Positions 367 to 37,341 of a DNA stretch of 64,000 nt are shown here, piece after piece. How positions within the stretch are numbered: position 1 is the stretch's first letter; each line of letters opens with the position of its first letter. The translations under genes were made by a program, and so were the position numbers. The DNA is from Hyphomicrobiaceae bacterium (GTDB lineage: Bacteria; Pseudomonadota; Alphaproteobacteria; Rhizobiales; Xanthobacteraceae): the NCBI GenBank assembly GCA_021324465.1, contig JAJPJB010000026.1, positions 1 through 64,000 of the forward strand, written 5' to 3'. The notes beneath the pieces are model-generated. The model did no database searches. It was not told the DNA's origin and saw only the letters and a list, made by a program, of their open reading frames with translations.

Positions 367-1764
367 GTGAAGTTGTCGTTTCACGGCGCTGATCGCGACG
401 TCACCGGCTCTTGCCATCTGCTGGAATGTGGCGGCCGTCGCCTGCTTGTCGACTGCGGCCTGCATCAGGGCACACACGAGAACGCGGCCCAGAATGCCGA
501 TCCATTCGGTTTCGACCCGGCGGACATTGATTTTGTGCTGCTCACGCACGCGCATCTCGATCATTGCGGCCGCCTGCCGCTGCTTGCGAAACAAGGATTC
601 CGCGGCGAGATCGTCACGACGGCCGCGACGCGCGAGCTCGCCCGCCTGGTCTTGCTCGATGCTGCCCATCTGCAGGAGCAGGAGGCGCGCCTGCACGGAA
701 GCGAAGCCCGAAAACCGCTGCAGCGCGACGGCAACGGCCAAAGGCCGCAGCCGCTTTATTCCCTGCTCGATGCGCTCAACAGCCTTGAGTTCTTCGGGCG
801 AAGCGCCAATTACGGCGAACCTATGGCCATTGCGCCGGGCATTCAAGCGACTTTTATTGACGCAGGCCACATCCTGGGCTCAGCGAGCATTTTCCTGGAG
901 CTCGACGAGCAAGGCCGCCGCCAGCGTGTGCTGCTTTCCGGCGATCTTGGCAGCGGCACGCATCACGTGTTGCGCGGCCCGGACGCGCCGCCGAAGACCG
1001 ACGTCGTGGTCATGGAGACGACTTACGGCGACCGCCTGCATCGGCCTTTCGCGGCCTCGGTCGAGGAACTCTACCAGGCCGTCGGCGAAGCGCTGACGCG
1101 CGGCGGCAACGTGGTCATTCCGACGTTTGCCCTGGAGCGTGCACAGGAGCTGCTCTATTTTCTGCGCGCCGGCATCGCGCAAAGCAGGCTGCCACCCTCG
1201 ATGCAGGTCTTTCTCGATTCGCCGATGGCGATTTCGGCCACGGAAGTCTTCAAACATCACCTTGACTGTCTGGATCCCGAGGTCGCTGCGCTCTTGCACG
1301 ACGGCATCGACCCGTTTGGTCTGCCGGGGCTGCACTTGGTCCGGGAAACTTCAGACTCGATCGCCCTGAACGGCATCAAGAGCGGCGCCATCATCATGGC
1401 CGGACCAGGCATGGCGACCGGTGGGCGCGTCGTCCATCATCTGCGACATAATCTTTCCAGACCGGAATCGAGCATCGTCTTTGTCGGCTATGCCGCCCTC
1501 GGCACGCTCGCGCGCCGCATCATCGACGGTGCCTCCCATGTGAGAATCTTCGACGAGGATGTGCCGGTCCGCGCGCGAATCTACACCATCAACGGCTTTT
1601 CCGCCCATGCCGATCAGGCCGAGCTCGTGGCGTGGCACAATCAAACCGGTGCCGGGCGCACCTTTCTGGTGCATGGCGAGGAAAACGTCATGCAGGTCTT
1701 TGCCGGGAAGCTGACCGGCACGAAAATAGAGTTGCCCACGCTCCACCAAGGCTTCGACATCTAG
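367..1764 (+). CDS. MBL-fold beta-CASP metallo-hydrolase (RNA-processing exonuclease family)
   Basis: A 465-residue protein of the metallo-beta-lactamase fold with beta-CASP insertion (CPSF73/RNase J/TTHA0252-like group), expected to be a cytoplasmic zinc-dependent nuclease acting on RNA. HAHLDH at residues 61-66 is the metal-binding HxHxDH motif; further motifs are the acidic DLG of the central part, FLDSPMA of the beta-CASP domain, GFSAHADQAEL and the terminal FLVHGE. The length is that of the compact one-domain exonucleases; no KH domain follows. The start is GTG at 367, chosen because a GGAGG motif at 357-361 lies six bases upstream; the ATG at 363 is in another frame. It sits 63 bases after the LOG gene, so both could share a transcript. 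A hairpin follows the stop. Confidence 0.85.
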   Translation: MKLSFHGADRDVTGSCHLLECGGRRLLVDCGLHQGTHENAAQNADPFGFDPADIDFVLLTHAHLDHCGRLPLLAKQGFRGEIVTTAATRELARLVLLDAAHLQEQEARLHGSEARKPLQRDGNGQRPQPLYSLLDALNSLEFFGRSANYGEPMAIAPGIQATFIDAGHILGSASIFLELDEQGRRQRVLLSGDLGSGTHHVLRGPDAPPKTDVVVMETTYGDRLHRPFAASVEELYQAVGEALTRGGNVVIPTFALERAQELLYFLRAGIAQSRLPPSMQVFLDSPMAISATEVFKHHLDCLDPEVAALLHDGIDPFGLPGLHLVRETSDSIALNGIKSGAIIMAGPGMATGGRVVHHLRHNLSRPESSIVFVGYAALGTLARRIIDGASHVRIFDEDVPVRARIYTINGFSAHADQAELVAWHNQTGAGRTFLVHGEENVMQVFAGKLTGTKIELPTLHQGFDI

Positions 1765-1850
1765 GCGCGGCGGTCCGGCGCACGGGAGCGGCTTTGCTCC
1801 TGTGCGAGGCGCCGCAACCGGGTATCCGCCGCCCTGCGCGGCCCGAACAA

Positions 1851-1876
1851 AAAACACCGGTATGTGACGGTGTTTT
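1851..1876 (+). terminator. Hairpin terminator candidate after the beta-CASP gene
   Basis: A perfect 9-bp inverted repeat, AAAACACCG (1851-1859) and CGGTGTTTT (1868-1876), with an 8-base loop, lies 87 bases after the stop of the metallo-hydrolase gene. The 3' arm itself ends in four T. The stem is short and only moderately GC-rich, so it is a plausible but not strong intrinsic terminator. Confidence 0.5.
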
Positions 1877-1966
1877 AACCGATCGCATACAGATTTCGGT
1901 GTAACTGATTGAGCGGCCGCATATTGTATTGGCCGAAACGAGACCTGCCCCGTTCGAGAGGCATTG

Positions 1967-2212
1967 ATGATCGACGCGCTGAGGCATGCGCGGCGCCTGC
2001 GCCAATGCGCGCTCAAATCGCTCAGACTCGCTGATCTCAGCCCGACCCGCGAGGTCGCCAGACACTATCGGCTCATCTCCCAGCATTATGCTGCGCTGGC
2101 ACGGCTCGCCGAGAGCGGCAAATACCTGGACCGATCGCCCGAGCATGCTGCCGAACGCGCAGCCGAACATGATTCGCCAATGGCGCCACGCCAGGATGAG
2201 CTGGTCGAATGA
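1967..2212 (+). CDS. Small helical protein of unknown function (paralogue of the gene at 52011)
   Basis: An 81-residue basic, Leu/Ala-rich helical protein with no signal peptide or membrane segment. An ATG at 1967 is favoured over the in-frame TTG at 1964 because the GAGAGG motif at 1956-1961 is then at normal spacing. The spaced pattern LRxxAxxxLxxA ... A..H/Y...A.LA resembles the small protein at 52011-52214 (RLRQCALKSLRLADLS against KLRIQAERLFAFALRT), so both probably belong to the same family of short helical proteins frequent in Bradyrhizobium-like genomes. No function can be given. A minus-strand reading frame (2086-2355) overlaps it and was not preferred. Confidence 0.55.
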   Translation: MIDALRHARRLRQCALKSLRLADLSPTREVARHYRLISQHYAALARLAESGKYLDRSPEHAAERAAEHDSPMAPRQDELVE

Positions 2213-2897
2213 CCGCAGGCTGTCGCCGCAGACCTTCGACCAAGCTGCCGGCCCGCAGCGCCGGGCCACGAATCTGCTGCCAAACTGCAAGCCGAGCACA
2301 GCAGCACTAACGCAATGCTCAGATATTTCGCAATGTCGTCCATCCTACGGCGCAACGCATCAGAGAAGGCTGGGCGGGCATTTGTGCGTCACTGTTCAAT
2401 GATGCTTGGCCGAGATCAGTTCTGCCGCGCTAGACGCAGCGCGGGGGTATCGACATGCGATACGCCGCCAAGCGAACAGACGCCGTGCATTGACGCGGCG
2501 CTAATCGCATCTGCGCCCTTTCCAGATGCGCGTGATGGAGCTGCTGCAAGGTTGCGAAAAGTGTGATCGCAAGCGTCTTGACGACGCGAATGAGCGTTGA
2601 TTGAGCGATCATGGCTGTTTCCTGAAAGCACCAAGCGAAGCGCCCTGGGCGCTCCCTGTCCGGGACAGGTGGTGCCGGCCTTATCGATCTTTAATGCTGC
2701 GTTCAGTGAATGCGCTGTTTCAGGAAGTGAAATAATGCAAAGCTCGAATCGACAACCGACAAATCACTGTCACAAACAAGCGCGTCATTGCTATGGGCAA
2801 ATCGGCGCCGCCGGATGCGCCTGGCTGTCATGCGAATCGGCGCTATTTCGTCTAAGGTCCACCTTCAGACTGCGTGACAACGCCCGTGGGGGTCCGC
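2213..2897. other. Gene-free stretch before the ParA gene
   Basis: About 685 bases without a convincing gene. Short frames exist on both strands (2315-2566 plus, 2430-2612 minus, 2597-3010 plus), but they lack a good ribosome-binding site, recognisable domains or normal codon-position bias, and the last one overlaps the ParA start in another frame. The base composition around 2700-2870 is less GC-rich than the neighbouring genes, consistent with non-coding or decayed DNA. No tRNA-like T-loop or strong terminator was seen. Confidence 0.4.
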
Positions 2898-24919: not shown

Positions 24920-26368
24920 ATGAGCGTGGTCACCCGCTTTGCCCCCTCGCCCACCGGCTTTCTGCATATCGGCGGGGCGCGCACCGCATTGTTCAACTGG
25001 CTTTATGCGCGCGGCCGCGGTGGCAAGATGCTGCTGCGGATCGAAGACACCGACCGCGAGCGCTCGACCCAGGCCGCGATCGACGCCATCCTCGACGGCC
25101 TGGAATGGCTCGGCATCGTCTGGGACGGCGAGGTCATCTATCAATTTTCGCGCGCCGCGCGGCACCGCGAGGTCGCCGAGAGCCTGCTCGCCAGCGGCCT
25201 TGCTTATCGCTGTTACGCGACGCCGGAAGAGCTCGCGCAGATGCGCGAGGCCGCGCGTCGCGAAGGACGTGCCAAGCTCTATGACGGGCGCTGGCGCGAG
25301 CGCGATCCGAGCGAAGCGCCGCCGGGTGCTAAGCCGGCGATCCGTCTTAAGGCGCCGCTGACCGGCGAGACCGTGATCGAGGATCAAGTGCAAGGCCGCG
25401 TCGTGTGGCAGAACGAGAATCTCGACGATCTCGTGCTGCTGCGCTCCGACGGCACGCCGACGTATATGCTCGCGGTGGTCGTCGACGATCACGACATGGG
25501 TGTCACCCACATCATCCGCGGCGACGACCATCTCACCAATGCGGCGCGGCAGAAGCAGATCTATGATGCGCTCGGCTGGACCGTGCCGGTCATGGCCCAT
25601 ATTCCGCTGATCCATGGGCCGGACGGCTCAAAATTGTCAAAGCGGCACGGCGCGCTCGGCGTCGACGCCTACCGCGCCATGGGCTATCTGCCGGTGGCGC
25701 TGCGCAATTATCTGGTGCGGCTGGGCTGGAGCCACGGCGACCAGGAAATCTTCTCGACCGAAGAGATGATCGCCGCGTTTGATCTGCCGCAGATCGGCCG
25801 CGCGCCCGCGCGGTTCGACTTCGCCAAGCTCGAAAATCTCAATGGGCATTATATTCGCCAGAGCAGCGATACCAACCTGCTCAAGGCGATCGAGGACCTG
25901 CTACCGCATCTGCCGGACGGCGATCGCATCGCCGCAAAGCTCACGCCAACCGTCCGCACGCAATTGCTGGCGGCCATGTCGAGCCTCAAAGAGCGTGCCA
26001 AGACGCTGGTTGATCTGATTGACGGCGCTGGATTCCTGCTGTCCGACCGGCCGATCGCGCTGGACCCGAAGGCACAGGCTTTGCTCACGCCGGAGGCGCG
26101 CGACCTGCTCGGCGATGTGTCGGCCGATCTTGCCCGCGTCGAGCCGTGGACCAGCGAGGGCACCGAGCAGGCGGTGCGCAATTTCGCGGAAGCGCGCGGC
26201 GCCAAGCTCGGCGCGGTGGCCCAGCCGCTGCGCGCCGCTTTGACCGGCCGCACCACCTCGCCCGGCATATTCGAGGTGCTCACCGTGCTCGGCAAGGAAG
26301 AAAGCCTGGCGCGGCTCGCCGACCAGACCCACAATGATCGCCGCGCCGGGCAGCAGAATGCCAGCTGA
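24920..26368 (+). CDS. gltX: Glutamyl-tRNA synthetase
   Basis: A 482-residue class I synthetase charging tRNA-Glu. [25 protein letters not shown] holds the HIGH motif, [12 protein letters not shown] the Glu-binding segment, [20 protein letters not shown] the stem-contact part, and GSKLSKRHG the KMSKS motif. The helical anticodon-binding domain is complete, ending in [25 protein letters not shown]. It is divergent from glnS (297 bases between them) and 184 bases upstream of gltA on the same strand, the usual rhizobial neighbour. Confidence 0.96.
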
Positions 26369-26552
26369 AGGCGGGCGGCACGTCTTTGCCGCATCGGGCC
26401 AACCATGGCGAAGGCGCGCGGAGGCTATTATCTTGCAGTGCAAACGGGGTTGCGCTACGCCAAGGGCGCCGGGTCGAGCCTGCCACTCTCGTTCGATTGG
26501 CCAGTCCGGTCCACGGCGTGTCACCGCCGTTGTTGAATGTCGAGGTACGATC

Positions 26553-27860
<1,308 letters not shown>

Positions 27861-28018: not shown

Positions 28019-28645
28019 ATGCGCATGTTGCAGCGGCTGACAGTCATTGCACTTCTTTCCGCCCTCGCCGGCACTCAGGCCGCAGCACAGGATGCCATCG
28101 GCGCAGTCAGCCGCATCCAGGGGGAGGCGAGCGCGACACGCGGTGGAACGACGCGGGCGCTGGGCCTGAACGCGTCCGTGTTTCTCAACGAGGCGGTCTC
28201 GACCGGCGACGCGGCGCGGCTGGAAGTTAGGTTCGCCGACAACACGCGGCTGACGCTTGGCGAGAAAGCCAAGCTGACGCTTGACACTTATGTCTTCAAT
28301 CCTGCCGCGGGCCGCGGAACAATCAAGTTTGCGATGGTCGGGGCCTTCCGGTTTCTGTCAGGCCGGGTAGCGAAGCTCGCCAGTTCCGACGTCAGCGTGA
28401 CGACGCCCGTCGCAACGGTCGGCATCCGCGGCACCGAATTTTGGGGCGGGCCGATCGACGATCAGGCGCTCGGCGTATTCCTGATCCAGGGCGCGGTGAG
28501 CGTATCCAACGCCGCCGGCACACAAATCCTCAGCCAGCCCGGTCAGGGCACCAATGTCGCAACGCCTGGCGCGGCACCCGGGCCGGTCACCTTCTGGCCG
28601 GCGGACAAGGTGAACCGAGCGATTGCGACCGTGACGTTCCGATAG
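28019..28645 (+). CDS. Exported FecR-domain protein
   Basis: A 208-residue protein with a signal peptide (LTVIALLSALAGTQAAAQ) and a FecR-type beta-domain: VSRIQGEASATRGG, LNEAVSTGDAARLEVRFADNTRLTLGEKAKLTLD, GAFRFLSGRVA and TPVATVGIRGTEFW are the typical repeats of this domain. Unlike classical FecR it has no N-terminal anti-sigma region and no transmembrane anchor, and no ECF sigma factor or TonB receptor is adjacent, so it is more likely a free-standing periplasmic or surface protein than a FecI regulator. The two Met at 28019 and 28025 are both possible starts. Confidence 0.8.
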   Translation: MRMLQRLTVIALLSALAGTQAAAQDAIGAVSRIQGEASATRGGTTRALGLNASVFLNEAVSTGDAARLEVRFADNTRLTLGEKAKLTLDTYVFNPAAGRGTIKFAMVGAFRFLSGRVAKLASSDVSVTTPVATVGIRGTEFWGGPIDDQALGVFLIQGAVSVSNAAGTQILSQPGQGTNVATPGAAPGPVTFWPADKVNRAIATVTFR

Positions 28646-28732: not shown

Positions 28733-29755
28733 TCAGCGCCGACCATACGCCCAAGTGAGATAGGCTCCGCCCCAGGTGAAGCCGCCGCCGAAGGCGGCAA
28801 GGATCAGCCGGTCGCCCGCCTTCAGCTTGCTTTCGTAATCCCACAGGCAGAGCGGAATGGTCGCCGCGGTGGTATTGCCGTATTTGTGGATGGTGATCAT
28901 CACGCGCGCGGCCGGCAGCTTCATGCGCTCGGCGGTGGCCTCGATGATGCGCCGATTGGCCTGGTGCGGCACCAGCCAATCCACCTGGTCACTCGTGAGA
29001 TGATTGCGCTTCATCAGCTCGGTAGCGACCTCGGCCATGCGCGCGACCGCAAATTTATAGACCGCGGCGCCTTCCTGATGGACATAGTGCAATCGCTTGG
29101 CCACGGTCTCCGCGGTCGGCGGCATGCGGCTGCCGCCGGCCTTCTGGTGCAGATGCGGCATGCCGGCGCCGTCCGAAGCAATCAGCGTGTCGATGATGCC
29201 GTATTGTTTGTTCGGCTCGACCAGCACCGCGCCGGCGCCGTCGCCGAACAGCACACAGGTGGCGCGGTCGGTATAGTCGATGATCGCCGACATCTTGTCG
29301 GCGCCGACCACCACGATCTTTTTGTACTTGCCGGTCTCGATGAATTGCGCAGCGATGGCCAGCGCATAGACGAAGCCGGAACAGGCGGCCTGCACGTCGA
29401 AGCTGCCGATGCAACGGATGTCGCACATGTCGCAAATCAGATTGGCAGTCGATGGAAAGACAAAATCCGGGGTCGTGGTCGCGCAGATCAGAAGCTCGAC
29501 AGCCTCGGCCGCTGTCTTCGTCTTTGCGAGCAGCCCCTGCACGGCCTGCGCGCCCATATGCGAGGTGCCGAGCCCCTTGCCCTTGAGGATATGGCGCTCC
29601 TTGATCCCCGTGCGCTCGGTGATCCACTGATCACTGGTCTCGACCATCTCGGCGAGCTCGGCATTGGTGAGCACGTCGGGCGGCACATAACCGTACACCC
29701 CGGTAATGGCGGCCCGGATCGGGGCTTTCCGCGCCGGTCTCTTGATCTTGCTCAC
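28733..29755 (-). CDS. fabH: 3-oxoacyl-ACP synthase III, Bacteroidetes-like form
   Basis: A 340-residue KAS III thiolase-fold enzyme that starts fatty-acid chains from acyl-CoA and malonyl-ACP. Catalytic triad: Cys125 in QAACSGF, His264 in VPHQANRRI and Asn294 in KYGNTTAATIP. Several segments are unlike usual proteobacterial FabH and match what I recall of Bacteroidetes and Chlorobi enzymes: GADKMSAIIDYTDRATC, HLHQKAGGS with a following TVAKRLHYVHQEG, IPLCLWDYESKLK and AFGGGFTWGGAYLTWAY. It starts at GTG 29755, 48 bases after lpxB on the same strand, so it is probably transcribed with the lpx genes; no plsX is present. A transferred second FabH is the best reading. Confidence 0.88.
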   Translation of the reverse strand: MSKIKRPARKAPIRAAITGVYGYVPPDVLTNAELAEMVETSDQWITERTGIKERHILKGKGLGTSHMGAQAVQGLLAKTKTAAEAVELLICATTTPDFVFPSTANLICDMCDIRCIGSFDVQAACSGFVYALAIAAQFIETGKYKKIVVVGADKMSAIIDYTDRATCVLFGDGAGAVLVEPNKQYGIIDTLIASDGAGMPHLHQKAGGSRMPPTAETVAKRLHYVHQEGAAVYKFAVARMAEVATELMKRNHLTSDQVDWLVPHQANRRIIEATAERMKLPAARVMITIHKYGNTTAATIPLCLWDYESKLKAGDRLILAAFGGGFTWGGAYLTWAYGRR

Positions 29756-29803
29756 CGAGGATTCTTCGAACTGACGCTTCAGGCTTTGAGTGGGATGTGC
29801 GGC

Positions 29804-31039
29804 TTAGCAGGATGATTGCGGCAATGGTAGAGGCGCGGCCCGCGGCTTCCTCGCCGCGCCCACTGTCTCGAGGACGATGGCCGCGGCCTTGGCGCTTGGG
29901 CTTACGCCGCCGACGCCCATGATCTGATCGAGACGGCCGAACGCGGCGACCTGGCGCGCGCGCTCCGGTGTTTCCGACAGAAGTGGAAGGAGCGCTTCGG
30001 CCAGCCGGTCCGACGTGCATTTCTCCTGGATGAATTCCGGAACCGCGTTCGCACCGAGCACCAAATTTGCCAGAATTACGCTCGGCAGCCGCGACTGGAT
30101 GCGAATGAGCCGGGCGATCACCGCTTCGAGGATGTGCAGGCGGTAGGCGGCCACGGTCGGCACACCGGCGAGCGCGAGTTCGAGCGTTACTGTTCCGGAC
30201 GCCGCGAGCGCCGCCCGCGCGGTGCGGAACGCCGCCCATTTCTGCGCCGGCTCGACGACAATCCGGGGCGCCATCGGCCAGCCGGCCGCCGCCTCGCGCA
30301 CGCGCGCGGCCAAATGCGGCACGGTCGGCAGTACGATCTCCAGCGGCCCGACGCGCCGGCCGACACGGTCGAGCGCTGCGCCAAAAATCTCGATATGCCG
30401 CCTGATCTCGGTCGAGCGGCTTCCCGGCAGCGCAAGCACAATGGGCGGTGCGCTTGCGCGGCGCGCCGCCTCTTCGGCGTTGGGCCGCAGTTCGGACAGC
30501 CGCTCGATCAAGGGATGGCCCACATAGGAGCACGGCGGACCCTTGAGCCGCCCATATGCCGCCGGCTCGAAGGGCAGGATCGCGAGCACGCGGTCGACAT
30601 AAGCGCGCATCGCCCGCGCCCGGCCGGACCGCCAAGCCCAGACCGAAGGCGACACGTAATCAACGATGGGAATCATCGGCGCCAGTTCGCGCACCCGGCG
30701 CGCCACGCGATGGGTGAAGTCCGGACTGTCGACAATGACCAGCGCGTCCGGGCGTGCGGCCAGCACGGCCGCGGTGGCCTCGCGGATTCTGCGAAAGATT
30801 TTCGGCAGCTTTTGCGGAATCGCGGTCAGGCCGACGATTGCCAGTTCATCGATCGCAAACGGGCTCAAAATTCCGGCCGCCGCCATGGCGCGCCCGCCGA
30901 TTCCGGAAAGCGTTATCGCCCCGCCGGTTTGCGCGGTCAGCGCACGCGCCAAAGCCGCTCCCAGCGCATCGCCGGATTCTTCCGCCGCGATGATGTAGAC
31001 CGAGGGCGGCGGCAGCGGCGCGGATTCAGGCGCATTCAT
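29804..31039 (-). CDS. lpxB: Lipid-A-disaccharide synthase
   Basis: A 411-residue GT19 glycosyltransferase joining lipid X and UDP-2,3-diacylglucosamine into the tetraacyl disaccharide at the inner membrane. AAEESGD is the (G)EpSGD signature, VDSPDFTHRVA, YVSPSVWAWR, LPFEPAAY and YVGHPLIERL follow in the family order, and LPGSRSTEIRRH is the UDP-binding loop. The start codon overlaps the lpxI stop (ATGA), so translation is coupled. The next gene downstream is fabH. Confidence 0.95.
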   Translation of the reverse strand: MNAPESAPLPPPSVYIIAAEESGDALGAALARALTAQTGGAITLSGIGGRAMAAAGILSPFAIDELAIVGLTAIPQKLPKIFRRIREATAAVLAARPDALVIVDSPDFTHRVARRVRELAPMIPIVDYVSPSVWAWRSGRARAMRAYVDRVLAILPFEPAAYGRLKGPPCSYVGHPLIERLSELRPNAEEAARRASAPPIVLALPGSRSTEIRRHIEIFGAALDRVGRRVGPLEIVLPTVPHLAARVREAAAGWPMAPRIVVEPAQKWAAFRTARAALAASGTVTLELALAGVPTVAAYRLHILEAVIARLIRIQSRLPSVILANLVLGANAVPEFIQEKCTSDRLAEALLPLLSETPERARQVAAFGRLDQIMGVGGVSPSAKAAAIVLETVGAARKPRAAPLPLPQSSC

Positions 31040-31953
31040 CGCGGCGGCTCCTCACGCAGGCCGTGTTCGTGCACGCCGATGACAAAAATGCCGGCGCGAT
31101 CGGCGGCGGCGAGCATCTCCTGCGCATCCGCCATCATCGTGCAGCCGGCGGCCACGGCGAGGCCGGCAAGACCGGCGCGGGCCACATTCTCGATCGTGCG
31201 CGGCCCGATCGAGGGCAGGTCGAAGCGACGGTCCTGACCGGGCTTCGGCGCCTTCACCAGAACGCCGACGCCTGGCGCAGCCGTCACGCGGCCGAGCTTG
31301 CGCAATTCGGCGATGCGCAGCAGCATATTGTCGGTGCCTTCGGCGGCCTCGACTGCGAGCACGTGATTGTTCGCAACGATCGCAGCCTGCCCGATATCGA
31401 ACGGTCCGAGCGCGGCGATGACCGTGAGCGCGCGGGCGATGTCGGCGCGATCGCGGTCCGTCGGCTGGTGCCGCCCCAATATGCCTTCCGGCGCGAAAAC
31501 CTCCGGCGCCACATCCCTGACACCGACCACTCGCAAGCCGCCGCTCTCGGCCACGCCGGCAACGCCGGACAACAGCCTGTCGTCGCCGCCGCGGAAAAAG
31601 CGAATGACGCGCGGCATCAGCTTGAGTGTCGTCCAGTCGAGCCGCAGCGCCGAAATCGGCGGTCGCAGGACCGTGCCGATGAACAGCACCTCGCGGCAGT
31701 TCTCGGCGCGCGCCAGCCGAAAGAAGCGGCCGGCCTGGCCGATGGCGATCCAGTGATGCGGATAACGCGCAATCACTTTTTCGTCGGCCCAGCCTTTGAC
31801 GCCGAACATCACCGGGCGACGGCCGCGCCGCGCCACTGCATCGGCGATCGCGCCCGGAAAACTGCCGCCGCCGCAGATGATCGCCAGCGAATCCGAGGAG
31901 GGTTGCGCGTCGGCCATGACCGGCTCACTCTTGGCAAGGCTCACAAAGCTCAT
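31036..31953 (-). CDS. lpxI: UDP-2,3-diacylglucosamine pyrophosphatase LpxI
   Basis: A 305-residue DUF1009-family protein that hydrolyses UDP-2,3-diacylglucosamine to lipid X in alphaproteobacteria, in place of LpxH. IICGGGSFPGAIADAVARRG is the N-terminal motif, DRLLSGVAGVAE and the C-terminal segment VLVKAPKPGQDRRFDLPSIGPRTIENVARAGLAG are typical. The start ATG overlaps the lpxA stop, and the stop overlaps the lpxB start, so lpxA-lpxI-lpxB form a tightly coupled set. A Met at 31917 would also be possible, but the overlap supports 31953. Confidence 0.95.
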   Translation of the reverse strand: MSFVSLAKSEPVMADAQPSSDSLAIICGGGSFPGAIADAVARRGRRPVMFGVKGWADEKVIARYPHHWIAIGQAGRFFRLARAENCREVLFIGTVLRPPISALRLDWTTLKLMPRVIRFFRGGDDRLLSGVAGVAESGGLRVVGVRDVAPEVFAPEGILGRHQPTDRDRADIARALTVIAALGPFDIGQAAIVANNHVLAVEAAEGTDNMLLRIAELRKLGRVTAAPGVGVLVKAPKPGQDRRFDLPSIGPRTIENVARAGLAGLAVAAGCTMMADAQEMLAAADRAGIFVIGVHEHGLREEPPR

Positions 31954-32777
31954 TCGACTCCGTCACTTGCAGGTCCGTCGGCGCCGCGCCGCGCGCGCGG
32001 TCGCATCAGCGGCCGCTTGCCGCCGGCGCGGATGAACGCGATCATCTTGCCGACCAGCGGATCGCCGGCAAATTCCCGCGCCACCGCTTCGATCCGATCG
32101 GCAATCCGGCCCTCGACAAAAAACAGCAACCGGTAGGCGCGCCGGATGCGATGCATCTCGGCCTTGGTCGCGCCGCGCCGGCGCAAGCCGACAATATTCA
32201 ACCCGACCAGCGCCCCGGTCTGGCCGAGCGCGAAACCGAATGGGATGATGTCATCGCGCGCCGCCGACATGCCGGCCATCATCACGCCTTCGCCGATGCG
32301 GACAAACTGATGGATGGCGACATGGCCGCCGAGGAAGGTGTGATCGCCGACGCTGACGTGGCCGCCGAGCACGGTGTTGTTGGCGAGCGTCACGTTATTG
32401 CCGACGCAGCAATCATGCCCGACATGGGCGCCGACCATGAACGTGCAGCGGTCGCCGACGCTCGTGATGCCGGCGCCGTCTTCAGTCCCGGTATTCATGG
32501 TGACGCCCTCGCGCAATTCGCAATGTGCGCCGATCACAAGCCGCGTCGGGCCGCCTCTATAATGGACCGATTGCGGCGGTGTGCCGAGCGAGGCGAAGGG
32601 GTAGACCACGGTGCCTTCACCGATCGCGGTGACGCCCGTGACGTTGACGTGGCCGAGGAGCCGCACGCCGGGCGCAAGCTCAACCTGCGGCCCGATCAGA
32701 CAATAGGGCCCGATCTCGACAGAGTCGGCAATACGGGCACCGTCGGCAATGCGCGCGGTCGGATCGATCATCGCCAT
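31950..32777 (-). CDS. lpxA: UDP-N-acetylglucosamine acyltransferase
   Basis: A 275-residue left-handed beta-helix acyltransferase for the first step of lipid A synthesis, ACP-linked hydroxyacyl transfer to UDP-GlcNAc. Hexapeptide repeats run through the first 190 residues; MVGAHVGHDCCVGNNV contains the catalytic His, and FLGGHVAIHQFVRIGEG and MSAARDDIIPFG are family motifs. The C-terminal helical part is followed by an Arg-rich tail of about 20 residues. Start at ATG 32777 or 32771. It lies 132 bases after fabZ, the largest gap in the fabZ-lpxB run. Confidence 0.96.
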   Translation of the reverse strand: MAMIDPTARIADGARIADSVEIGPYCLIGPQVELAPGVRLLGHVNVTGVTAIGEGTVVYPFASLGTPPQSVHYRGGPTRLVIGAHCELREGVTMNTGTEDGAGITSVGDRCTFMVGAHVGHDCCVGNNVTLANNTVLGGHVSVGDHTFLGGHVAIHQFVRIGEGVMMAGMSAARDDIIPFGFALGQTGALVGLNIVGLRRRGATKAEMHRIRRAYRLLFFVEGRIADRIEAVAREFAGDPLVGKMIAFIRAGGKRPLMRPRARRGADGPASDGVE

Positions 32778-32909: not shown

Positions 32910-33368
32910 CTACGCCTCGGTGATCACTGCGCCGACTTCGGCTTCGGCGATCAGTGCATCGCCGACCTTGGCCTCTGCCCGGTACCACCACATGTTGCGG
33001 CGGTGCGCGATCTTGTTGACATGATACTGAACGGTATCGCCCGGGACGGCGGGCCTGCGGAATTTCGCCTTGTCGATCGTGAGAAAATAGAACACGGCAT
33101 TTTTCCGCGTCGCCTCGTCCATCTGACGCAGACACAGCACGCCCGCAGTCTGCGCCATGCCTTCTATCAACAGCACGCCCGGCATCACGGGATTACCTGG
33201 AAAATGTCCTTGGAACTGCGGCTCGTTGACGGTGATATTTTTGATGCCGATGCCATGCTCTTCGCCCTTGATGTCGATGATGCGATCGATCATGACAAAG
33301 GGATAGCGATGCGGCAAAAGCCGCAAGATCTCGCGGATCTCGGCGGCCTCGATAACCTCGCCGCTCAT
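32910..33368 (-). CDS. fabZ: 3-hydroxyacyl-ACP dehydratase FabZ
   Basis: A 152-residue hot-dog-fold dehydratase of fatty-acid elongation. LLPHRYPFVMIDRI is the typical start, and GHFPGNPVMPGVLLIEGMAQTAG carries the catalytic His and Glu. The ATG at 33368 overlaps the lpxD stop (ATGA) and gives the normal length; the frame continues 23 codons upstream inside lpxD. Its place between lpxD and lpxA is conserved in Gram-negative bacteria, balancing use of hydroxyacyl-ACP for phospholipids and lipid A. Confidence 0.96.
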   Translation of the reverse strand: MSGEVIEAAEIREILRLLPHRYPFVMIDRIIDIKGEEHGIGIKNITVNEPQFQGHFPGNPVMPGVLLIEGMAQTAGVLCLRQMDEATRKNAVFYFLTIDKAKFRRPAVPGDTVQYHVNKIAHRRNMWWYRAEAKVGDALIAEAEVGAVITEA

Positions 33369-34417
33369 GCCTCTTCCCCTCCGCCCTCGTCGCCGCGCAG
33401 CACCAGCTTGCGCACCATCGCGACGCCTTTGAGCCATTCGCGCGCCGGCCGCGCCGGGAAGCCGCCCCAGCGCGCCTTCGCCGGCACATTGGACATTACT
33501 CCGCTCTTGGCGCCAAGCACGGCGCCAGAGCCGATATTGAGGTGATCGGCGACGCCGACCTGGCCCGCCATGGTGACGAAATCACCGATCGTAACGCTGC
33601 CGGAAATACCGGTTTGCGAGACAATCACGCAGTGCCGGCCGATCGAGGTGTTGTGTCCGATCTGGACGAGATTGTCGATCTTGGTGCCCTCCCCGACGAC
33701 GGTATCGCGCGAGGCGCCGCGGTCGATCGTGGCATTGGCGCCGATCTCGACATCGTCCTGGATGATGACCCGCCGCGTCTGCGGGATTTTCTGATAGCCC
33801 TTGGCGCTCGGCAGATAGCCGAAGCCGTCCTGGCCGATCCGGGCGCCGGGATGAATGATCACGCGGTCGCCGATCAGCGCGCAAAGCACCGAGGCATTGG
33901 CGCCGACCGCACAGTCGCGACCGATCCGCACATCCGGACCAATGACGGCGCCCGGTCCGATCAGCGTGCCGGAGCCGATTTCGGCGCGCGGCCCGATCAC
34001 AGCAAAGGGATCGACGGTCACGCCGGCTTCCAGCCGCGCGGTCGGATGGATCTGCGCCGCCTCGGCACGCCCGCGCGTCGCAAGCAGGGAGGCCGGCCGC
34101 AGCGCGTCGGGAAACAGTTTGCGGGTGACGGCAACGAAGGCGGGATAAGGATGCGCGGTCTCGAGCGCGGCGATGCCGCGCGGCACGGCGCCCGTAAAAC
34201 GCGGCCCGACCAGGCAGGCGCCGGCGCGCGTGCCGGCGAGTTCGCCGAGATATTTTGAATTATCGAGGAAGCTGATGTCGGACGGCCCCGCGGTATCGAG
34301 CGGCGCAACATTGCGGATGCGGCGATCCGCAGGGTCGCCTTCGCGCAAAGTGGCGCGCGTGAGTGTGGCGATCTCGCCGGTCGTCAACTCGCAGCTCGGG
34401 GTAACAAGATCGGGCAT
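33365..34417 (-). CDS. lpxD: UDP-3-O-acylglucosamine N-acyltransferase
   Basis: A 350-residue left-handed beta-helix acyltransferase, the third step of lipid A synthesis. An N-terminal uridine-binding domain (about residues 1-105, with DISFLDNSKYLGEL) is followed by many hexapeptide repeats and GQDGFGYLPSAKGYQKIPQ; the catalytic His lies in VQIGHNTSIGRH. The start is taken as ATG 34417, because the 28 residues upstream are not family-like and run into the palindromic repeat. Its stop overlaps the fabZ start. Upstream is bamA, with the repeat between. Confidence 0.95.
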   Translation of the reverse strand: MPDLVTPSCELTTGEIATLTRATLREGDPADRRIRNVAPLDTAGPSDISFLDNSKYLGELAGTRAGACLVGPRFTGAVPRGIAALETAHPYPAFVAVTRKLFPDALRPASLLATRGRAEAAQIHPTARLEAGVTVDPFAVIGPRAEIGSGTLIGPGAVIGPDVRIGRDCAVGANASVLCALIGDRVIIHPGARIGQDGFGYLPSAKGYQKIPQTRRVIIQDDVEIGANATIDRGASRDTVVGEGTKIDNLVQIGHNTSIGRHCVIVSQTGISGSVTIGDFVTMAGQVGVADHLNIGSGAVLGAKSGVMSNVPAKARWGGFPARPAREWLKGVAMVRKLVLRGDEGGGEEA

Positions 34418-34469
34418 CAATCGGTCCGTAGCGCAAGCATGCAATTCGGACTGGCCCAAGATTTTAGTC

Positions 34470-34519
34470 GAGCATGATCCTTTCCCGGAGCCGGCTTCCA
34501 CTTTTCGGGGATCATGCTC
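34470..34519. repeat. REP-like palindrome between bamA and lpxD
   Basis: GAGCATGATCC (34470-34480) and GGATCATGCTC (34509-34519) are perfect 11-bp arms around a CGGAGCCGG...-type centre of 28 bases. Elements with GAGCATGATCC ends are abundant intergenic palindromes in Bradyrhizobium and relatives. It begins four bases after the bamA stop and could act as an mRNA-end structure for bamA. Confidence 0.75.
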
Positions 34520-34522
34520 TGA

Positions 34523-37144
34523 TCAGAATTTGGCGCCGCCGCCAAAGGCGAAGAACTGCGTGCGATCGTAGGGGCCCTTGGTGATCGGATAGGCAAAGTC
34601 GAAGCGCAGCGGTCCGAACGGCGAATCCCAGATCAGGCTGGCGCCGACCGAGGAGCGAATGAGCGCGCTGTCGTTGTAGACCATGCCGCACTGGCAGACA
34701 AAGCTACCGCCGTTAGTGGTGGCGTTGGTGGCTACGGTGATCGGGCCGTTGATTTCGCCGGTGGCAAAATTTTGCGTCTCCCCCTTGTAGCCCCAGACCG
34801 ATCCGGCATCGACGAAGACCGCACCCTTGAAGCCGGAATCCTTCGGCAGGAAGTAGAACGGATACTGGAATTCGAGGCTCGCGCCCCAGTATTTGGTGCC
34901 GCCGATATTGTCGTTGGTCGTCCCGAACGTGATGTCGCGCGGCCCGATGCCGGCCGGCTGGAAGCCGCGCACCAGATTCGGACCCATCTTGAAATCGTCG
35001 AGCATGCGCACATAGCCGCTGTTCGACACGCATTCGCCGGCCTGTGGGCAATCCTTCAGACCATAGATGTCGCCTGCCTGCAGGTGCACGATGCCGACCA
35101 GATCGGAGACGATTTCGTAGTAGCTGCGGAAATCGACCGTGCTCTTGATATAGGCGGTGTCGCCGCCGGCGCCGGCAAAGTCCTGACCGAAATTGAGGAA
35201 GATGCCGTTGGTCGGATTCTTGTTGTTGTCGAGCGTGTTGAAGACGATGCCGTAACCCGGCGCCGAGGTGAACGTGGCGCCTTGGCCCAGCTCGACGCGC
35301 ACCGGCAGCGAGGCCTCGCCGTCCTGGAGACAGTTGCTCTGAGTGCCGTTGGTAATAGCCGTGTTGTAAGCTGGATTGTAAGGCGTGCCGCCCGATGACA
35401 TCAACGCGCTCGGGGTGGGGAAGGTATTGGCAAAATCCGGATTGAGGTTGTTGCAGTTGTCCAGATAGTACGGCAGCGTGATCTTCTGCACGAAGGCCGA
35501 ATAGCGCAATTGAATCGCAAAATCTTCGCGCAGCGGCAGGCCCCATTTGAGCACGCCGCCATACGACGTCGTCCCGTAAGACAGATAAGTATTGGCCAGC
35601 GTCTGCTTGGCGAACAGATCGATGCCCATGCTGGAGCGCGTATCGAGAAAATACGGCTCGGCATAATCGATCTCGATGCCGCGGACATATTGGCCATAGG
35701 TGACCGCGGTGCGGGCGAAGCGGCCGGTGCCGAGGAGATTGCGTTCTTGCACCGAGACTTCGCCCAGCCAGCCGTCGGAGGTTGAATAGCCGCCCATGAT
35801 GGAGAAGTCGCCGGTCGATTGTTCCTCGACATCGACATTGATGACAACGCGGTCGGGCGCCGAGCCCGGCTCGTTGGTGATCTTCACATTCTTGAAGTAA
35901 CCGAGATTCTTGATGCGGCGCTCGGCGCGGTCGATCAGCGCGCGGTTGTACGGATCGCCTTCGCCGATGTCGAATTCGCGCCGGATCACATAATCGCGGG
36001 TGCGATAATTGCCGCGGATATTGATGCGCTCGATATAGGCGCGCGTGCCCTCGTCGACCACGAACACCACGCCGATCGTGCGAGCCTGCGGATTGCGGTC
36101 ACCGCGCGGGCGCACCGTGCCGAACGGATAGCCGCGGCGCGCCAGCTCGATCGTCATGTCCTCCACGGTCTTTTCGATCGCCTCGCCGTTGTAGATCTGG
36201 CCCGCGGCCATCCGCAGACTGGGCCGCAGCGACTGCGCATCGACGGCGCGGACGTTCGATTGGATGTCGATGGTGCCGAAATGGTAGAGCGGCCCCTCCT
36301 CGATCGTGAAGGTGACGATGAAGCCCTTCTTGGCGGGATCGTAGACGCCGGTCGCCGAGACGACCTGAACGTCGGCATAGCCGTGCTTGAGATAGAAGCG
36401 CCGGATCAGATCGCGGTCGGCTTCGATACGATCCGGATCGTAGACGTCGGTGGTCTGCAGGAAGCTCAGCCAGTTGGATTCGGCGGTCTTGATCACCTCT
36501 TTGAGGCGCCAGTCCGAATAGGCGGTGTTGCCGACGAAGACGATCTTCTTGATGCCGGTCTTTTCGCCTTCATTGATCTTGAAGATCAGATCGACGCGGT
36601 TGTTCGGCCGCTCGATGATCTGCGGCACGACGGTGACGTCAAAGCGGCCGTTGCGCTGATAGATTTCGATGATGCGCTGAACATCGGCCTGGACGGTGGG
36701 TTTCGACAGCGCGCCACGTTCCTTGGACTGAATTTCCTCGGTGAGCTGCTCGTCCTTGAGGCGGCGATTGCCTTCGAAGGCGATGCGGTTGATCACCGAG
36801 GCCTCGACCACCGTGACAATGAGCTTGCCGCCCGATTGCGCGATGTGAACATCCTGGAACAGGCCGGTGGCATAGAGCGCTTTGAGGCCGGCATCGATCG
36901 CCGCGGCATCGAGCCGTCCCGAGGGACCGGGCTTGAAGTAGGAGCGGATCGTATCGGCTTCGACGCGGCGATTGCCTTCGACAACGATCGCGCTCGCAGG
37001 CACGCCGGATTCGGCCGGCGCCGCCACGGCGGCCGTCATGAAGCCGCCGGCCGTCGCGCCCAACAGCGACGGGCCAAAGCCCCCCAATGCGAGGAGCAAG
37101 CCGGCCACGACAAGCCCTCGTTTTACCCGCACACACATGTCCAT
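34523..37144 (-). CDS. bamA: Outer-membrane protein assembly factor BamA
   Basis: An 873-residue Omp85 protein that inserts beta-barrel proteins into the outer membrane. After a signal peptide (hydrophobic VVAGLLLALGGFG) come five POTRA domains, the first starting at SAIVVEGNRRVEADTIRSYF and the last including IRGNYRTRDYVIRREFDIGEGD; the barrel spans about residue 430 to the C-terminal aromatic FAFGGGAKF. GFQPAGIGPRD is the VRGF-like loop-6 motif in the barrel (VRGFQPAG). Surface loops carry several Cys (CNN, SNC, DCPQAGEC, CQCG), likely disulphide-bonded. ATG 37144 follows AAGGGCG; TTG 37150 is the alternative. Follows rseP in the cluster. Confidence 0.95.
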   Translation of the reverse strand: MDMCVRVKRGLVVAGLLLALGGFGPSLLGATAGGFMTAAVAAPAESGVPASAIVVEGNRRVEADTIRSYFKPGPSGRLDAAAIDAGLKALYATGLFQDVHIAQSGGKLIVTVVEASVINRIAFEGNRRLKDEQLTEEIQSKERGALSKPTVQADVQRIIEIYQRNGRFDVTVVPQIIERPNNRVDLIFKINEGEKTGIKKIVFVGNTAYSDWRLKEVIKTAESNWLSFLQTTDVYDPDRIEADRDLIRRFYLKHGYADVQVVSATGVYDPAKKGFIVTFTIEEGPLYHFGTIDIQSNVRAVDAQSLRPSLRMAAGQIYNGEAIEKTVEDMTIELARRGYPFGTVRPRGDRNPQARTIGVVFVVDEGTRAYIERINIRGNYRTRDYVIRREFDIGEGDPYNRALIDRAERRIKNLGYFKNVKITNEPGSAPDRVVINVDVEEQSTGDFSIMGGYSTSDGWLGEVSVQERNLLGTGRFARTAVTYGQYVRGIEIDYAEPYFLDTRSSMGIDLFAKQTLANTYLSYGTTSYGGVLKWGLPLREDFAIQLRYSAFVQKITLPYYLDNCNNLNPDFANTFPTPSALMSSGGTPYNPAYNTAITNGTQSNCLQDGEASLPVRVELGQGATFTSAPGYGIVFNTLDNNKNPTNGIFLNFGQDFAGAGGDTAYIKSTVDFRSYYEIVSDLVGIVHLQAGDIYGLKDCPQAGECVSNSGYVRMLDDFKMGPNLVRGFQPAGIGPRDITFGTTNDNIGGTKYWGASLEFQYPFYFLPKDSGFKGAVFVDAGSVWGYKGETQNFATGEINGPITVATNATTNGGSFVCQCGMVYNDSALIRSSVGASLIWDSPFGPLRFDFAYPITKGPYDRTQFFAFGGGAKF

Positions 37145-37341
37145 GCGCAAAGCGCCCTTATACCCCTCGTGGCCGCCCCCAGCGGCGGGTTACCTGCAGA
37201 TCTCCCTCAATTGCGCCTTGCTCAAATTCGAAATTCTATTGAGATATCTTTCACTTCTGACCATCCCCAATAGCATCCCCACGTGCTCGCTGCCACCCCC
37301 CGACATGTCGGCCCAAGCCCTTCCCCAGGGTCTTAAGACCC

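Follow-up and report, generated by a model that had tools for sequence, protein, structure and literature searches.

The lpxB-linked fabH and Its Genomic Neighborhood

Analysis of the window (the whole 64,000-nucleotide stretch studied here, from a soil alphaproteobacterium with a genome of 4.57 Mb and a completeness of 99.67%) led to a fabH gene of Bacteroidota type at position 28733–29755 of the reverse strand. It has a GTG start and is predicted, on the basis of TIGR00747, phylogenetic trees and its catalytic triad, to encode a beta-ketoacyl-ACP synthase III (KAS III) of 340 aa. On the same strand lie lpxB (29804–31039; PF02684, 264.2 bits), which encodes the lipid-A-disaccharide synthase, and lpxI (31036–31953; PF06230 and PF17930). 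Upstream of them lie four ORFs on the reverse strand that were named by reading their sequences, namely lpxA (31950–32777), fabZ (32910–33437), lpxD (33365–34501) and bamA (34523–37150). The starts of fabZ and lpxD are uncertain, and homologs of the four are established in the same order in the other carriers of the gene with enough flanking sequence. As the initial annotation had it, fabH is located 48 nt downstream of lpxB and in the same direction. No terminator-like or promoter-like sites were reported inside this gap (29756–29803, reverse strand), and its shortness together with the lack of a terminator-like site is suggestive of co-transcription with lpxB. On the other side, the insertion site is bordered by the convergent gltA (26334–27860, forward strand; PF00285), whose mechanically called ORF start is probably too early, and a gene with a FecR domain (28019–28645, forward strand; PF04773, 43.3 bits) is found between gltA and fabH. 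In other carriers with gltA in view the gap 3′ of fabH ranges from −4 to 1461 nt and is often shorter than 100 nt.

Concerning composition, the GC content of fabH (0.632) falls inside the range of nine neighboring genes (0.597–0.685) and its GC3 (0.827) is slightly over theirs (0.716–0.818). A recent mobile origin was rejected, because the composition of the gene resembles that of its neighbors. A search against plasmids gave, among the matches listed (15 of 17 records), five rows with more than 50% identity, all from Bacteroidota, with Bernardetia presenting the highest (62.9%); the remaining rows had at most 42%.

FabH Identity and the Native plsX-Linked Copy

Family models and the conserved triad indicate that the window gene encodes a full-length FabH. 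The protein scores above the cut-off of the curated FabH model TIGR00747 (363 bits, cut-off 292.1) and of PRK09352 (401.6 bits, cut-off 249), and solved FabH chains align along nearly its full length, the best being 8vd9 (262.7 bits). Cys125, His264 and Asn294 align with C112, H244 and N274 of Escherichia coli FabH, and this triad is kept in all 51 rows of the lpxB-linked clade described below. Additionally, there are 14 positions at which a residue fixed in Bacteroidota FabH differs in alphaproteobacterial FabH and is kept by the lpxB-linked clade, M155, H223, Q227 and F322 being among them, while the changes of the clade's own, by the thresholds used, are five (35, 135, 233, 242 and 288).

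Five sequence stretches had been proposed as Bacteroidetes signatures. All are present in the window protein, but as exact strings most of them turned out to mark the alphaproteobacterial lpxB-linked clade rather than Bacteroidota. Specifically, GADKMSAIIDYTDRATC occurs in 16/51 rows of the clade and in 0/68 of the Bacteroidota FabH rows, YVHQEG in 36/51 and 1/68, LCLWDYESKLK in 9/51 and 0/68, and AFGGGFTWGGAYLTWAY in 6/51 and 0/68, respectively. LHQKAGGS is common to both groups (44/51 and 10/68), and so is the shorter ADKMS (47/51 and 44/68). Neither the five stretches nor ADKMS were found in any of the 14 alphaproteobacterial plsX-linked FabH rows.

The C-terminal family of KAS III has three matches in the host genome. 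Apart from the window gene, there is a native fabH on contig C99 with the gene order DUF177-plsX-fabH-ihfA-merR, whose product is 43% identical to the window protein and scores 413.1 bits on TIGR00747. The claim that the window fabH is not next to plsX is thus upheld, and the second, plsX-linked fabH that had been proposed for a check is present elsewhere in the genome. Among the 61 genomes scanned, a separate native-like FabH match (41–47% identity) was detected in 19 of 20 carriers; the only carrier without it (G003) is 79% complete, and in G004 and G005 the match appears only as fragments. The lpxB-linked fabH is an addition to the native fabH. The third match, on contig C27 (locus L005, 5099–6190, reverse strand), is a distant KAS III-like gene and probably a type III polyketide synthase. 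At E ≤ 1e-20 NCBIfam gives a single match, DpgA, which stays below its cut-off (132.5 bits, cut-off 425), and the ORF that follows it on the same strand resembles an FAD oxidoreductase by eye.

Relatives in Bacteroidota and Horizontal Origin

The window protein is 70–75% identical to the plsX-linked FabH of Spirosomataceae and close kin, and 39–47% identical to alphaproteobacterial FabH of the plsX type, that of its own genome included. In the aligned set, identity to the window protein was 62.0–87.8% for the rows of its own clade (n = 50), 46.6–75.2% for 68 Bacteroidota FabH-1 rows, 42.6–45.4% for 14 alphaproteobacterial plsX-linked rows and 40.3% for E. coli FabH. A scan of named genomes, limited to the top 80 loci among at least 556 relatives, led to five MAGs of Xanthobacteraceae/Hyphomicrobiaceae and 75 Bacteroidota loci, and nearly all of the latter belong to Spirosomataceae or close kin (67–75% identity). 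One FabH inside the Spirosomataceae group (locus L093, 5995–6978, forward strand) comes from a genome titled Flavobacterium sp. SUN052, which points either to a misnamed genome or to a transfer.

A match at E ≤ 1e-60 was present in each of the 118 sampled Bacteroidota genomes, the weak cases being G248, G289 and G331, with only 38–41% identity, and G345, with only a fragment. In the best-80 scan plsX adjoins the gene in 70 of the 75 Bacteroidota loci, and the five without it (L108–L112) are second copies of Dyadobacter (67–68% identity to the window protein). In a wider Bacteroidota sample plsX was located within 1.5 kb in only 16 of 30 loci, so the link with plsX can be regarded as firm in the donor group alone. 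The genes 3′ of fabH in Runella and Spirosoma resemble efp, accB and accC by eye and, along with the adjacent plsX, point to an ordinary fabH locus in the donor group. FabH of the window type looks like the ordinary copy in Bacteroidota.

Phylogenetic trees of KAS III proteins were built from 225 rows, from which 144 were chosen for a quick tree and 68 of these for a careful mixture-model tree, identical sequences being dropped in both cases. In the 68-row tree the lpxB-linked FabHs fall into a single clade (100/100), which is nested in Bacteroidota FabH. Its grouping with Spirosomataceae and close kin, which leaves out Siphonobacter, has a support of 97/96, and the 144-row tree agrees on this placement. 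The alphaproteobacterial plsX-linked FabHs form a clade of their own (100/98) with E. coli FabH as neighbor. Placement inside this latter group, which the initial annotation had named as the outcome that would speak against its proposal, is rejected, as a tree forced to unite lpxB-linked and alphaproteobacterial plsX-linked FabH is worse by 97.85 log units (p-AU 6.66e-05). Forcing Bacteroidota FabH-1 to be a clade without the lpxB-linked one costs 22.3 units, and since its p-AU is only 0.024, nesting inside Bacteroidota FabH-1 is supported, but less strongly. Warnings of long branches meeting were given for both trees, between FabH-2 and FabH-3 rows in the 144-row tree and between FabH-2 and the entire FabH-1 group in the 68-row tree.

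Both a Bacteroidetes-type FabH and its horizontal acquisition had been suggested from the window alone, and identity, trees and gene order now support the two proposals. Based on these sequence comparisons, a horizontal origin from Bacteroidota is strongly supported. The reverse transfer, from alphaproteobacteria to Bacteroidota, is disfavored because nearly all of the Bacteroidota sampled have the type and the clade is placed within Bacteroidota.

Distribution in the Family

A total of 50 out of 198 family genomes passed a threshold of E ≤ 1e-85. G190 and G211 (47% identity) were counted as plsX type and dropped, giving 48 carriers among the 198 genomes and in 13 of 47 genera, and six more carriers outside that count were seen only in the 61-genome scan. 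In samples of the phylum (n = 398) and the order (n = 397), in which up to five candidates were scored per genome, only the window's own genome had a match at E ≤ 1e-92. The matches of these two samples include no known carrier other than the window's genome, and consequently an occasional carrier from another family may have escaped detection.

The adjacency to lpxB is conserved among the carriers. In 55/55 loci from 50 distinct genomes the gene comes after lpxB in the same orientation, a count made without G010 and G166 (contig ends) and G188, and locus L025 agrees. The distance from the lpxB stop to the first aligned FabH residue ranges from −4 to 223 nt in the 55 loci. In L025 itself (G001; 1480–2312, reverse strand) fabH is split into two overlapping frames, reflecting either a frameshift or an assembly error. 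G019 has an extra copy of the Bacteroidota-type FabH on contig C34, away from lpxB (L041, 3047–4378, forward strand; L240, 5121–6452, reverse strand), and an ORF near it resembles acetoacetate decarboxylase by eye. On contig C244 of G014 and contig C120 of G019 the lpxB-linked and the plsX-type fabH are about 7–9 kb apart on one contig. Finally, a genome from another family of the order (G047, locus L033) has a FabH tandem after plsX (495–1472 and 1420–2475, forward strand).

Relatives lacking the gene had been said to have gltA next to lpxB. This holds for 20 of 29 lpxB loci, drawn from 30 presumed non-carriers, where the convergent gltA adjoins lpxB. Two of the other nine loci (G002 and G016) stop at a contig edge immediately behind lpxB, so that these genomes may be carriers. 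No FabH remnants were detected at the 29 loci (best tblastn E-value = 0.52).

Selection, Gain and Loss

The lpxB-linked fabH is under purifying selection: its dN/dS was 0.032–0.146 in ten close pairs and in all ten was equal to or below that of lpxB. Divergence of FabH also follows that of its neighbors, though only moderately, with a Spearman coefficient of 0.56 between FabH and lpxB identity (1081 pairs of 47 rows) and of 0.45 between FabH and gltA identity (406 pairs of 29 rows), the pairs in both cases not being independent. On the lpxB tree, which comprised 80 rows including a few duplicate loci, 52 of them scored as carriers, carriage needs 11 changes, at least 7 of which are forced by starred branches, compared to 23.5 in shuffles. 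The number may be inflated, because G002 and G016 were scored as non-carriers though they end at a contig edge. Eleven changes imply either frequent loss, in keeping with a role that is conditional or dispensable, or movement within the family, and one old gain with repeated loss and a combination of loss and exchange within the family both fit. It is also conceivable, though somewhat unlikely, that the clade was repeatedly transferred within the family into the same lpxB-gltA gap instead of being gained once and lost many times. Carriage is patchy inside genera (g1 and g11) and the FabH and lpxB trees partly disagree, as such transfer would have it, but there is a single FabH clade at a single site and its divergence correlates with that of lpxB and gltA. 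Loss and exchange by recombination through the flanks fit the present data alike.

Putative Role of the Second FabH

The most probable explanation, in our judgment, is that the window gene encodes a working second KAS III, acquired once from Bacteroidota and serving as an extra initiator that is co-expressed with the lipid A genes. An ancestor in this alphaproteobacterial family would have acquired fabH on a single occasion from a bacterium near the base of Spirosomataceae. Its place of insertion would have been the lpxB-gltA gap, 3′ of bamA-lpxD-fabZ-lpxA-lpxI-lpxB, and the native plsX-linked fabH would have been retained alongside it. Its product would most likely condense a short acyl-CoA with malonyl-ACP, starting type II fatty-acid synthesis. 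Because the gene sits in the lpx operon, acyl-chain start-up would be tied to lipid A demand and would rise with the synthesis of lipid A and the outer membrane. As fabZ is already part of the operon, fabZ and fabH together would put two steps of fatty-acid synthesis beside the lipid A enzymes. The conserved linkage to lpxB fits a role in the envelope, and we prefer the reading that chain initiation is coupled to the demand for lipid A; co-transcription with lpxB, the KAS III activity of the lpxB-linked FabH and its benefit are inferred.

The initial annotation had suggested a use in lipid A or with branched or odd-chain starters. A rather unlikely alternative of this kind is that the enzyme primes with isobutyryl-, isovaleryl-, 2-methylbutyryl- or propionyl-CoA, yielding iso, anteiso or odd chains, perhaps the 3-hydroxyacyl chains of lipid A. 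The retention of M155, H223, Q227 and F322, fixed in Bacteroidota and different in alphaproteobacteria, is in line with this. F100 (E. coli F87) and Q227, presumably lining the pocket, are kept in 44/51 and 49/51 rows of the clade, respectively. The supply marker PF12573, which we take to be the E1 alpha of the proteobacterial branched-chain 2-oxoacid dehydrogenase, was searched for in 42 non-control genomes and found in 0/20 carriers, 2/20 non-carriers and 0/2 Spirosomataceae-type genomes (controls 0/14). The carriers thus show no sign of a branched-chain starter supply by this marker, but as it is equally absent from the Spirosomataceae-type genomes and the controls, it is not diagnostic. 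A search with PF00676 in four carriers gave four matches in the window genome, which were read as pdhA-like, sucA-like, transketolase-like and part of an extra E1 pair. The extra E1 alpha stays below both NCBIfam cut-offs (334.8 vs. 393.85 and 248.9 vs. 411.35) and the extra E1 beta exceeds the cut-off of one broad model only, PRK09212. Genera of the donor phylum do make branched-chain fatty acids, Flavobacterium and Bacteroides being named as such in an excerpt of PMC5011732, and FabH alone can bring branched chains to a straight-chain host, as a Ralstonia fabH mutant with the fabH of Xanthomonas campestris had more than 33.8% branched chains (PMC5011732, excerpt). Sequence nevertheless does not predict the starter, X. 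campestris FabH being more similar to straight-chain FabHs (PMC5011732, excerpt), and since similarity misleads in that case, the pocket residues were set aside as a predictor.

The gene could instead encode a backup or regulatory isoform that shares the acetyl-CoA chemistry of the native FabH and is retained for being less sensitive to a natural FabH inhibitor encountered in soil or differently regulated, and we consider this to be similarly improbable. Both copies exceed the cut-offs of the FabH models and keep the triad, the repeated absence of the gene in relatives suits a conditional benefit, and natural FabH inhibitors exist (reviewed in PMC6332302, excerpt). However, resistance alone would leave the fixed place in the lpx operon unexplained. 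More doubtful is the proposal that the acyl chains of lipid A receive a dedicated starter from the imported FabH, be it branched, odd or unusual in another way; if true, a whole branch of the family would rely on a Bacteroidota-type primer for part of its outer membrane.

Concerning biotin synthesis, the window protein reaches 242.7 bits on NF004623, which we presume to be a BioZ-like model (cut-off 437), and proteins over this cut-off occur in 0/20 carriers vs. 4/20 non-carriers and 0/14 controls (Fisher p = 0.106), a distribution leaning toward a BioZ role, but with both enzymes missing from 16 of the 20 non-carriers. A BioZ-like KAS III starting biotin synthesis from glutaryl-CoA is highly improbable and was rejected on the NF004623 and 6kue scores: in Rhizobiales a second KAS III may well be a BioZ (PMC8024396, excerpt), but PDB 6kue, which is AtBioZ (PMC8024396, excerpt), gives 162.3 bits compared to 262.7 for the best FabH chain, and the recognized neighbors are lpx genes and gltA. 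The non-carriers with a KAS III passing NF004623 are G020, G024, G036 and G190.

Comparison with Known Systems

Judging from the comparisons above, a central fatty-acid enzyme passed from one phylum to another, apparently on a single occasion, and took a place in the lpx operon, where at least 13 genera retain it next to the native copy. This links fatty-acid initiation genetically to lipid A synthesis. The lpxB-linked fabH also offers a simple test for a separate primer of the lipid A acyl chains. Among the matches listed in our searches, which were partly narrow and left subscription papers mostly outside, there was no literature on an lpxB-linked FabH of Bacteroidota origin. FabH as such and the Bacteroidota FabH are already known, as is the case of a second KAS III taken up by another operon (BioZ; PMC8024396, excerpt).

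X. campestris FabH is, like the window protein, a proteobacterial FabH, and the X. campestris enzyme starts branched chains, but it is 61.2% identical to E. coli FabH (PMC5011732, excerpt) and not an extra copy of Bacteroidota type. The BioZ of Agrobacterium and Brucella is likewise a second KAS III recruited into the operon of another pathway in Rhizobiales, but it derives from Rhizobiales FabH and not from Bacteroidota (PMC8024396, excerpt), and it is a weak match here. The native FabH of contig C99 belongs to the same enzyme family (TIGR00747), but differs in its 43% identity, its separate clade beside E. coli FabH and its plsX locus. The closest counterparts are the FabHs of Spirosomataceae and kin (Runella, Larkinella, Spirosoma and Dyadobacter), which share 70–75% identity with the window protein over nearly the full length, the same triad and the Bacteroidota-type residues, and are joined with it in the tree; theirs, however, is located after plsX (70/75 loci), whereas the extra gene of the window is established after lpxB.
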